NCBI GenBank assembly: GCA_026874595.1
Contig: CM049318.1
Coordinates: 59,184,250-59,248,249, forward strand
Direction of reading: 5' to 3'
From: Sipunculus nudus
Taxonomy: Eukaryota > Annelida > Sipuncula > Golfingiida > Sipunculidae
Length of the DNA: 64,000 nt
Part shown: positions 1,809 to 12,468 of the stretch, piece by piece
Layout of the letters: every line of letters begins with the position of its first letter
Numbering within the stretch: the first letter of the stretch is position 1
The notes under the pieces: generated by a model
The model's database searches: none
What the model was told of the DNA's origin: nothing
What the model saw: the letters and a program-made list of their open reading frames with translations, nothing else
Made by a program: the position numbers and the translations under genes

Positions 1809-1939
1809 TCAGGGTTGTACTTCTGCTGCCTTTAGCTTCTTAATGGTATTCTTTAATGCCTGCCTTTTGTTACAGAACCACACGCGGATGACTTCCCTGT
1901 CATAATTTAACTTCTCAGCTAGCTCTGTCATCTCAGCAC
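1809..1939 (-). CDS. POU6F: POU6 terminal exon: homeodomain helices 2-3 and C-terminus
   Basis: The last coding exon is 131 nt with an acceptor of type TTTTCAG|GTGCTGAG. It completes a split Gly codon and then encodes 42 residues and TGA. The sequence runs AEMTELAEKLNYDREV, IRVWFCNKRQALKNT and IKKLKAAEVQP. It supplies homeodomain helix 2 and recognition helix 3, with the invariant Trp48-Phe49-Cys50-Asn51 block; Cys50 is the POU-class hallmark and Asn51 contacts adenine. The basic run NKRQALKNTIKK also resembles a nuclear localisation segment. The tail after the homeodomain is only about 10 residues, shorter than in vertebrate class 6 proteins. The homeodomain is split after helix 1 (THPSG|AEM), as expected for class 6. 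Confidence 0.96.
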
Positions 1940-4194: not shown

Positions 4195-4415
4195 CTGATG
4201 GGTGAGTATTTCTTTCAAAGTGTTCATTTAAGAATTCCAAGGCCTGAGGTGTGAATGATGTTCTTCTCTTTCGTTTCTTGGAAGGTTCGCTGCCGATGAA
4301 TTCTGTCAGATTATGGACACCGTTTTTGTATCTCTCTTCAGCCTCTGCCATCCATCGTTCAAGTACTGGCTTAATTTTCTGGGCACTCTTTGGTGTAATA
4401 TCCAGTTTCTCAAAC
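4195..4415 (-). CDS. POU6F: POU6 exon: end of POU-specific domain, linker, homeodomain helix 1
   Basis: This 221-nt exon has acceptor ATTTCAG|GTTTGAG and donor CCATCAG|GTAACT. It completes the Arg codon of the preceding exon (...SAIC-R) and encodes FEKLDITPKSAQKIKPVLER, WMAEAEERYKNGVHNLTEF, IGSEPSKKRKRRTSFTPQAL and EFLNEHFERNTHPS. The first part is the end of POU-specific helix 3 plus helix 4, followed by a short linker, then the basic KKRKRR nuclear localisation and N-terminal arm that enters the minor groove, then homeodomain helix 1. The sequence is close to vertebrate POU6F1/2 over its whole length. Both alternative upstream exons join it at phase 2 without disturbing the frame. Confidence 0.97.
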
Positions 4416-9409: not shown

Positions 9410-9587
9410 CGACAGATTGCTGATTGGCTATAGGACGGCCCCTCCCTGGCACTGAGGGCTTGGCCGACTTGAGTCTGTGTCAGCCCCAGAGACAAGCGGC
9501 GAATTTTAAACTGTTTGGCAAATTCTCTTATTTCATCCAGGTCAACCCCATCGACTGTCGTACGATCCGCCATGTTACTAACAGTGT
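9410..9587 (-). CDS. POU6F: POU6 alternative POU-specific exon, downstream copy (6b)
   Basis: This 178-nt exon has acceptor TTTCGCAG|ACACTG and donor TGTCG|GTAAGC. In frame it reads (N)TVSNMADRTTVDGVDLDEIR, EFAKQFKIRRLSLGLTQTQV and GQALSAREGPSYSQSAIC(R). It encodes POU-specific helices 1 and 2 and most of helix 3, including the equivalents of the Oct-1 base contacts Gln27 and Gln44; Arg49 is completed by the next exon. Relative to the upstream copy (9639-9816) it has MADR for STES, V/D for I/N, two K/R swaps and R for L just before EGPSY. Length and both splice phases are identical to that copy, so only one can be used per transcript. It contains an internal ATG in a strong context (AACATGGCG). 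Confidence 0.96.
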
Positions 9588-9638
9588 CTGCGAAACAACA
9601 ATGAAAAGAAATGAGATGTCTTGAGGAAGGGGTCTTAC
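9588..9638 (-). other. 51-nt intron between the two alternative POU-specific exons
   Basis: The interval has a proper donor (CCG|GTAAGA) and acceptor (TTTCGCAG), but the whole intron is only 51 nt. That is at or below the usual minimum for metazoan splicing once donor, branch point and acceptor must fit. Reading through the upstream donor gives CGG TAA, an immediate stop. The short spacing is a well-known steric means of making neighbouring exons mutually exclusive. Confidence 0.85.
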
Positions 9639-9816
9639 CGGCAGATCGCGGACTGGCTATAAGATGGACCCTCTAACGCACTCAGTGCCTGTCCTACTTG
9701 TGTTTGAGTCAAGCCAAGGGATAATCGGCGGATTTTGAACTGTCGTGCAAACTCTTTTATTTCGTCTAGGTTTATCCCATCAACTGTTGTGCTCTCTGTG
9801 GAGTTACTGACTGTGT
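9639..9816 (-). CDS. POU6F: POU6 alternative POU-specific exon, upstream copy (6a)
   Basis: This 178-nt exon has acceptor ATTTTGACAG|ACACAG and donor TGCCG|GTAAGA. In frame it reads (N)TVSNSTESTTVDGINLDEIK, EFARQFKIRRLSLGLTQTQV and GQALSALEGPSYSQSAIC(R). It encodes the N-terminal half of the POU-specific domain and joins the 4195-4415 exon at phase 2. It is about 84% identical to the downstream copy in protein. Over the 44 codons from the Asn/Asp after VDG(I/V) to the final Cys, I count 12 identical codons, 28 synonymous differences and 4 replacements. Both copies therefore appear to be under strong purifying selection. The STES segment just before the domain could be a Ser/Thr phosphorylation stretch that the MADR variant lacks; that is speculation. 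Confidence 0.96.
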
Positions 9817-11626
9817 CTGTCAAAATGAAGAATGGTGAAATCTTGTGTAAGTGGGGCTTGGCATTATCACGTGACTATCGGACACCACAACACCTGTTGT
9901 TATTTCAGGAACATCACATTAACCATAACATAACAAATGTTACATACAACAGACCGTGTAAATCTGTAGCTCATTCATCTGAAAATTTGTTCCATGTAAT
10001 TCAAATGGAGCACAAAATGGCCCTTCCTCAACCAAACATTAAGTCGATGTAATTCAACTCAAAATCAATATGGATTGTCCATCTTTATGCATGCGTTCTC
10101 ACTTTTCTTTTTTAGCAGGCCTGGACAAATTAAAAATCTGGAGTGCTTCTGTAGCTTGCTCAAAGGTATGACACATTTACTTTCTATTATGTATTTGAAA
10201 TTTGCCAGGTCCATTTTTTAAGGCTAGAATATTCTTTTTGCAAGGCTGAATTTTCACAATTTTTGTACTTTTCTGCCATTCCCTCGAGGTTTCATTTTTG
10301 TAATCTGATGATTAACAAGCATTAGCTGATACCCATCTAATTGCAGACACTGGCACAGATTCTCAAGTTAAGATGAGAGCAGGATAATTTTCCTCTACAG
10401 TAATCTTAATTTAATGAGAGAATTATGTCATGCTACTTGGACTTGCAAACAGTAGAGCATTGTTTATTTGAACATCATTTATCCAAAAATTGTTTATCTG
10501 AAATTTATAACTGAGAACTGAAATTTTGACCTATATCTTAAATCCAAACAATTAGAAAATATTCAGGAATGAATTGAATTTTGATTTTCCATGGCCAATT
10601 AGTAATATTCTCAATGTATTTTATATGATAAATTTATTAAAATTTATTGAAAACCTGACAAAAATCCTGTTATTTTGGAGTAGCTTCATTAGCTTTTTCT
10701 AGTCCAAACAATCATTTATCCGAACAAAAAGCCTGTCCCCCAAGCTTTTCAGATAAACAACACTCTACAGTATATATTTTATTGACACCTTGTATGCACA
10801 GATGAAAATATATATTCAGAAAATATGATTTTGCCTAATTTTTAATGATCATTTGCTTAATTTGTCCAGACCTGCATAGTGCATATATGTTTGTACTGTC
10901 ATCCAGAAAACATTAAAACAATCATTATGGTTTATGTAATATAGGGCTGCAATGATACCATATTTCATGATACAATACATATCTTGAAATGTTATGATAT
11001 GATATCATAAAAATATGTTATATTATAATTTAAATTCCAAGCAAGGTTTTTTTTACCCTGGAAACAGAATAATATATTCATCATCTCATTTTCTTGTTAA
11101 GTGTCTTTGTTAATTGTCTTGAGATAAAGTACAGTTGCAGCCCAAGTAATGAGTATATATTACCAAAGAAGTGCTAAACATTACTTTTTTATCATGAAGT
11201 AGACAAAAAAATGCATATGAAAATACTTAACATTTAAAAAATACTGATTTAAATTATATTTTATGGACAGATGGGTCTTGAAAACAGAAAGAACAGATTT
11301 AATTTTTGTGGAAATACAGGTCTAAAAGTGAATAAGAGTTGATTAACTTTAGAGTTGATTTGGATTCAGATGTAAAAACTTTTCCCTTTTTGTATAGCGG
11401 TCTCTATATGTAGAGTATACAGAACCAACAACTGCTGGAGGAATTTGGAACTGTCAGGAGATACAGGTGTTGAGGAAAGAAGTCTGTAAATTTGACATGA
11501 CTCATCACGTCAGAAACTTTTTAAGTTGGTAGAAGCAAGGGGATAGTTTATAAATGTTAGGAGTTTTGTATTCATGTAACTAGTGACTAGATTTATATTA
11601 CAGACAGAACATGCTGATGAACTTAC
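9817..11626 (-). other. Intron upstream of the alternative exons
   Basis: The intron begins GTAAGT at 11626 and ends TTTTGACAG. The only recognisable content is a pogo/Tigger-like MITE at 10449-10772; the remainder is AT-rich sequence with no supported exon. The acceptor of exon 6a is immediately preceded by CATTCTTCATTTTGACAG, a reasonable pyrimidine tract. Confidence 0.7.
10449..10772. mobile_element. pogo/Tigger-like MITE
   Basis: The ends are inverted repeats: left ACAGTAGAGCATTGTTTAT and, read on the opposite strand, right ACTGTAGAGTGTTGTTTAT, both followed by a TGAA-type continuation. The interior repeats 'TTTATC(C/T)GAA' phrases. There is no coding capacity. The ends resemble pogo-group elements, which insert at TA; the flanking TA is clear only on the right side. 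Confidence 0.6.
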
Positions 11627-11900
11627 TGGGTAATAGTTGACTAACACTTTGTGGAAGAGCAGCTTGGGCTAACATATGTGTCATGCTAGCTTGGCTTACA
11701 ACCGGTGGTGCCACCGTCTGCATGAGAGTTGGCGTCGACATCGCTGACTGGGTGGTGGGTAGTGTTGACGCGGCTAGCTGTGACGTGACATGAGACTGCG
11801 ACAGTGGGGGTGTTGGTAGCTGCTGTGTGAGGTGGCTTTGCGTTCCGATGCCATTCGTTAACCCTGTCGTCTGACTCGTAGCGACTGGACTCTGTAATAC
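11627..11900 (-). CDS. POU6F: POU6 exon: S/T/Q/P-rich activation-type region
   Basis: The exon encodes VLQSPVATSQTTGLTNGIG, TQSHLTQQLPTPPLSQSHVT, SQLAASTLPTTQSAMSTPTL, MQTVAPPVVSQASMTHMLAQ and AALPQSVSQLLP, a low-complexity stretch typical of transcription-factor activation regions. The donor CCCA|GTAAGT is strong and leaves phase 1, matching both POU-specific exons. The start is ambiguous: two in-phase AGs nine nt apart, GTACAG| at 11901 and TTACAG| at 11892, give exons of 274 or 265 nt, and both keep the frame with the preceding phase-0 donor. I used the longer. Gln/Ser/Thr-rich sequence upstream of the POU domain is the rule in class 6. Confidence 0.86.
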
Positions 11901-12468
11901 CTGTACCATTAAATACGAACATCTGCAGTGACCAGTCACTACAATTATTATACCACACCATATGTGTTTAATTAGAAATGTTTCAAGTAATCTAAAATCC
12001 AATTTTGGACTGATATAAAATAACTGATGACTTACTTTGCTGTAGATTTTACTGTCAAGTATAAACACCCGATGTAACCAACTTCTATTTATTTACAGTA
12101 AAAGTTTGTTATGACAATGTACTTTGACAAACAAGAGGTTCAAAACAAGTGTATTTTAACTGGAAATAATTCTGTTGGAACAAATAGCTTTATACTTATA
12201 CATGAATACTTTTTATATGTTACTTAATATTTCAAATTCAGCTTCTACCAATGCAATTCCAGCATCACCATCAAGCAGTGTATTTATAACATTTGCAAAG
12301 GCTTATAATGCCCTTTCCTAAAGATACAAAGAAAAATTATTCTTAAATGATATAAGTTTAAGTCTATTACATATCAAATAGTAGAGAGAACACAGCAGAT
12401 AACAGCTGGATCTGTTAACAGCTCTGTTTACACACATTATTTTGCTTGAATCTTGAGTAATGACATAC
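11901..12468 (-). other. Short intron, no other content seen
   Basis: The donor is CCG|GTATGT at 12468 and the acceptor is one of the two AGs near 11892-11901. The interior is AT-rich; I see no repeat or exon in it. Confidence 0.7.

Follow-up and report, generated by a model that had tools for sequence, protein, structure and literature searches.

The locus raises the question of whether one gene can exchange the first part of the POU-specific domain of its product by choosing between two neighbouring exons, and what such an exchange would alter in the protein. We address it here from the window (the whole stretch of 64,000 nucleotides that was analysed), the assembled genome and the literature.

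Locus and Gene Identity

A POU-class gene has its 3' part on the minus strand of the window, where exons were placed from position 11900 down to the stop codon; all exon coordinates given here refer to this strand. An upstream exon (11627..11900), common to both predicted isoforms, ends with SQLLP and one further base. Its donor GTAAGT at 11626 was read directly, and its acceptor at 11901/11900 was inferred. Exon A (9639..9816) encodes ...TVSNSTESTTVDGINLDEIKEFARQFKIRRLSLGLTQTQVGQALSALEGPSYSQSAIC(R), the first part of the POU-specific domain through the recognition helix. After an intron of 51 nt (9588..9638) follows exon B (9410..9587), which encodes ...TVSNMADRTTVDGVDLDEIREFAKQFKIRRLSLGLTQTQVGQALSAREGPSYSQSAIC(R), an alternative version of exon A. 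A downstream shared exon (4195..4415) supplies the end of the POU-specific domain, the linker and the first part of the homeodomain, and the last coding exon (1809..1939) supplies the remaining homeodomain (VIRVWFCNKR) and the stop codon.

Judged by its closest solved POU protein, the gene is a member of the POU6 class (class VI). The best solved match is human POU6F1 (3d1n) with 187 bits and the next is Pit-1 with 91.2 bits, both scored for isoform A only; the assignment to POU6 made in the preliminary description is in agreement with these scores. The joined isoforms A and B contain the full Pou domain (PF00157; 106.4 and 104.0 bits, respectively) and the Homeodomain (PF00046; 64.6 bits).

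In the whole 1.43-Gb genome the Pou model matches six stretches, three of which belong to the POU6-class gene. The other three loci (C6, C10, C17) show 36-43% identity to the POU6-class protein over the POU region. The joined isoform A protein has 23 matches in the genome: four are its own exon stretches (81-98% identity) and three the other Pou loci, which leaves 16 that are confined to the homeodomain side. No second POU6-class gene is seen among these matches. By these searches the locus is the sole POU6-class gene found in the 1.43-Gb genome. The contig to which the window belongs (C13) extends to at least 68 Mb and bears myosin and kinesin matches as well.

Anatomy of the Exon Pair

Exons A and B are 178 nt long each, stand between an AG and a GTAAG, and lie 51 nt apart. 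Both complete a codon of which the upstream exon (with its end at 11627) supplies a single base, and leave two bases over for the downstream exon (starting at 4415), and the splice sites of both are intact and consensus-like. The two exons are thus adjacent, homologous, of equal length and of the same phases, with 85% protein identity, and each passes the Pfam cut-off for the Pou domain (27 bits) on its own, with 61.6 and 59.1 bits. That the window holds two intact 178-nt exons with matching phases, as had been proposed, is confirmed by coordinates, splice sites and frames. The region of 551 bp holding the pair matches nothing in the assembly but itself, and no second copy of it was found in the genome. 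A tblastn search of the window gave no third exon copy (best E-value beyond A and B: 0.057), and two scans each of the bacterial/archaeal and the viral contigs confirmed no relative.

Exon B contains an in-frame ATG at 9573-9571 just before the POU domain, in the context AACATGG, which is absent from exon A. AACATGG is a good context for a start codon, and the ATG could possibly serve as an alternative start. On these grounds exon B might mainly open the coding sequence of a short isoform, one that arises from an internal promoter or an alternative first exon, starts at this ATG (NMADRTTVDG) and yields a protein little larger than the POU domain. Exon B, however, has a pyrimidine-rich acceptor and shares with exon A both the NTVSN start and the phase, and so has the build of an internal exon. 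We therefore regard a main role as first exon as improbable.

Reading Frame and Probable Mutual Exclusivity

The four junctions 11627^9816, 9639^4415, 11627^9587 and 9410^4415 are all in frame, and the frame is kept into the shared exon at 4415 if either exon A or exon B is included alone. Inclusion of both leads to an early stop (...ICRHC followed by two stop codons), skipping of both shifts the frame, so that the translated product stops at codon 40, and retention of the 51-nt intron ends the protein at once (...ICR and a stop codon). It follows from these early stops that exactly one of the two exons is needed for a full protein.

A further hint towards the mechanism arises from the length of the intron between the exons. 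As a sample of intron sizes we took all 294 genome matches of the myosin (75), dynein (93) and kinesin (126) models. They form 218 neighbour pairs within 60 kb, of which 124 fit a single intron; the other 94 were left out, their model positions overlapping by more than 12 or leaving more than 8 uncovered. The shortest of the 124 estimated introns has ~154 nt and the median is ~626 nt, with estimates good to ~36 nt either way. The smallest raw gap among the 218 neighbour pairs is 130 nt, again for these three gene families. A count on rows chosen by eye (64 of the 75 myosin, 85 of the 93 dynein and 57 of the 126 kinesin rows) comprised 113 introns with a shortest length of ~154 nt and a median of 609 nt, and leads to the same conclusion: the intron between A and B lies far outside the sampled intron sizes of the three gene families. 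Within its 51 nt there are two branch-like motifs, CTCAT and TTCAT, the A of which is located 27 and 37 nt from the intron start, and there is no branch site of the ACTAAY type.

Introns of ~50 nt do get spliced in some animals, for example in Drosophila. In the alpha-tropomyosin type of mutually exclusive splicing, a 5' splice site near the branch point stops the two exons from being joined; the present pair would resemble this type in the short distance between the two sites, as judged from intron length. As the shortest sampled intron is far longer than the one in question, direct joining of A to B is probably blocked sterically.

We infer that both exons are used and that their products differ in function, in the following way. 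The upstream exon would join either A or B, and the chosen exon would then join the shared exon at 4415. The outcome would be two POU6 proteins with nine differing residues, located inside the POU-specific domain and immediately ahead of it. Two layers would ensure exclusivity: the intron between the exons would be too short, its 5' splice site and branch point being too close to each other, and transcripts with both or neither exon would be out of frame, stop early and be removed by nonsense-mediated decay.

With respect to the choice between the exons, no clear regulatory element was found in our search, only an excess of the hexamer TGCATG, which we take to be of the Rbfox type. It occurs six times on the minus strand in the intron after exon B (9089, 8310, 7927, 6378, 5482, 4462) compared to 2.5 expected occurrences, the nearest being ~320 nt past exon B. 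On the minus strand of the window as a whole, 30 occurrences compare to 28.9 expected. The excess is a weak hint at a regulatory element.

Divergence, Selection and Age of the Duplication

Both exons agree in 129 of 178 bases (72%) and in 51 of 60 residues. The 49 base changes are distributed over codon positions one, two and three as 8, 4 and 37, and 22 of the 26 shared fourfold sites differ, which is approximately the expectation at saturation. Maximum likelihood estimation with Biopython gave a dN of 0.083 and a dS of ~4.2; by the NG86 method dN is 0.096 and dS is undefined due to saturation. We compared this to a randomisation in which these 49 base changes were put at random sites of exon A in 5,000 trials. 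The random placements kept 30.7 of the 60 residues on average and 40 at most, never reached 51 residues (0 of 5,000), and gave rise to a stop in 4,086 trials. As silent sites are near saturation and replacement sites are conserved, the duplication is old and purifying selection acts on both copies. By eye the introns flanking the pair show no similarity. Compared to human POU6F1, exon A and exon B each agree in 36 of 46 residues, and because of this equal closeness neither of the two is plainly the derived one.

The pair has the look of mutually exclusive exons because of the reading frame, the 51-nt gap and the purifying selection on both copies, and to this extent the preliminary description is supported. 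The reading that we favour, and consider probable, is that exons A and B of this POU6-class gene go back to an old tandem duplication and that splicing uses them in mutually exclusive fashion.

The early stop after double inclusion and after double skipping would also suit a switch in which just one exon serves under normal conditions and regulated inclusion of both or neither shuts the gene off via nonsense-mediated decay. A poison exon does not need to encode a complete half-domain, yet both copies have retained theirs while their silent sites came close to saturation, and double inclusion is disfavoured by the short intron; we hold such a switch to be hardly probable. That one copy is a non-functional relic which has not yet decayed, or that the pair is an artefact of an assembly which does also include contigs that read as bacterial, is very improbable, since silent but not replacement sites are near saturation, neither copy has lost its splice sites or its frame, and the locus is single. 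The degree of DNA identity and the distance between the exons suggest that they are neither mutual haplotypes nor a recent assembly duplication, and the assembly error against which the preliminary description had cautioned is improbable.

What the Proposed Exchange Would Change in the Protein

The nine differences between the 60 residues of A and B are STES/MADR, I15V, N16D, K21R, R25K and L48R, exactly those that had been listed before. We take STES/MADR to precede the domain, I15V and N16D to lie at its start and K21R and R25K in helix 1; L48R presumably belongs to the loop before the recognition helix, according to the helix borders. Residues 26-47 and 49-60 are identical. By comparison with Oct-1 this identical part presumably takes in helix 2, the recognition helix and the positions that contact bases, and the equivalents of Gln27 and Gln44 (Oct-1 numbering) are retained in both exons, in accordance with the earlier claim.

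As the base-contacting residues are identical, an altered base specificity is not predicted, and we do not follow the preliminary description in speaking of two DNA-binding variants. Most likely the swap would tune DNA affinity, half-site geometry, the arrangement of the domains or partner contacts on the same core motif; a change in affinity or in the choice of partners is more probable than one in sequence specificity. A tentative extension, which we find possible but would not yet favour, is that the pair represents an ancient splice switch of POU6, kept up until silent sites were saturated, that alters the lead-in to the domain together with helix 1 and the loop ahead of the recognition helix. 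The docking of the POU-specific domain on the homeodomain, the DNA backbone or partners might then shift between neurons, independently of the solution found at the same junction in vertebrate POU6F2. If true, splicing of the POU6 domain arose more than once. An old and maintained POU6 pair, if real, would also be a natural test of those POU-specific residues that lie outside the base contacts.

Comparison with Known Systems

This kind of exchange is known already, from TCF3 and FOXP1, and the POU6 gene as its host appears to be new within the open-licence papers searched. Exons 18A and 18B of TCF3 encode the bHLH region. Their alternative use in TCF3 (E2A) leads to E12 or E47 (PMC12585103). 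TCF3 differs from the present case in its domain family and in a conserved regulatory region within its inter-exon intron, compared to 51 nt here. In FOXP1 the mutually exclusive exons 18 and 18b swap part of the forkhead domain (PMC11701043). The likeness is that two alternative exons exchange part of a DNA-binding domain in one frame. The difference is that measurements on the FOXP1 isoforms showed preferences for different DNA motifs, whereas the base-contacting residues of the POU6 pair, as judged from sequence, are unchanged.

The boundary of exons 10 and 11 in POU6F2 presumably corresponds to the place where exons A and B end. Splicing at this boundary alters the POU-specific domain in POU6F2 isoforms 1 and 2, where the last exon has two acceptor sites that allow 36 amino acids to be inserted (PMC10436210). 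The earlier statement that vertebrate POU6F2 varies this domain by insertion and not by exon duplication is in agreement with that paper. Both cases share the gene class and the alteration of the POU-specific domain by splicing, but a 36-residue insertion there contrasts with an equal-length replacement by a duplicated half-domain exon here, and the pair is not of the POU6F2 type with an extra segment at the downstream junction.

Duplication of a half-domain exon had been suggested to lack an earlier description. Indeed, no report of duplicated POU-domain exons was found in the open-licence papers searched; papers on a Drosophila Nubbin isoform (PMC5851638) and on HNF1B splice variants (PMC7181708) may contain related POU-type splicing. 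To our knowledge tandem exon swaps inside a DNA-binding domain are rarer still than such swaps as a whole. For human genes at least, swaps of tandem duplicated exons have been described as rare events of high importance, in a paper whose main text is without the terms "POU" and "transcription factor" (PMC9741552). A squid study reports a partial POU6 of 163 amino acids with expression in the nervous system, its main text containing no word beginning with "splic-" (PMC4407788). In an amphioxus study "splice", "isoform" and "exon" are all absent (PMC9953854), as is "POU6" from the main text of a paper on transcription-factor splicing in the oyster (PMC12111275).

Other Observations in the Genome

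In a muscle-type myosin heavy chain gene of the same genome (G000:C2:44849337-44852248) there are four tandem exon copies of the form ...NPVLEAxGNAKTxRNNNSSRF. Three of the four matches stand directly before GTAAGT and the fourth extends one codon into that donor. This is probably the known loop-1 cluster; clusters of alternative exons in muscle myosin heavy chain genes are known across bilaterians (PMC3912159). The cluster is similar to the POU6 pair in that the exons are tandem and alternative-looking, and differs in that its matches are ~580-1,070 nt apart, so that another mechanism of exclusivity would be needed. One muscle myosin exon scores 194.1 bits against 3i5f (presumably squid), 193.0 bits against "Myosin-6" entries and 192.8 bits against 2ec6/2os8 (presumably scallop), values that are near-equal and thus uninformative. 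A dynein heavy chain region (G000:C6:39308505-39316367) contains four tandem SxGxWxCxDEFNRI stretches at positions ~73-123 of the AAA_6 model, which look like another cluster of alternative exons, or like one copy with relics.

The genome gave no match to the molluscan haemocyanin model PF14830 or to the annelid linker model PF16915, results that do not show absence, and 0 matches to a pattern of codons that spells APGWGK and the beginning of a following Arg codon (APGWamide repeats); these outcomes speak neither for nor against the molluscan origin implied in the preliminary description. A COX1 search of the genome gave 11 matches. The cytochrome oxidase genes on C60 (17380-18780) and C123 (9253-10542) have neighbourhoods that look bacterial by their open frames; no tRNA was found, and no mitochondrion was recognised in these two neighbourhoods. 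Strong COX1 matches likewise occur on C61, C62, C66, C72, C74, C75 and C89 (two on C89). Contigs with such bacterial-type COX1 probably stem from a symbiont or a contaminant. Finally, ten homeodomain-side matches with 33-36% identity to the POU6 homeodomain lie within ~370 kb (C10:12296785-12663889) and probably form a tandem cluster of homeobox genes.
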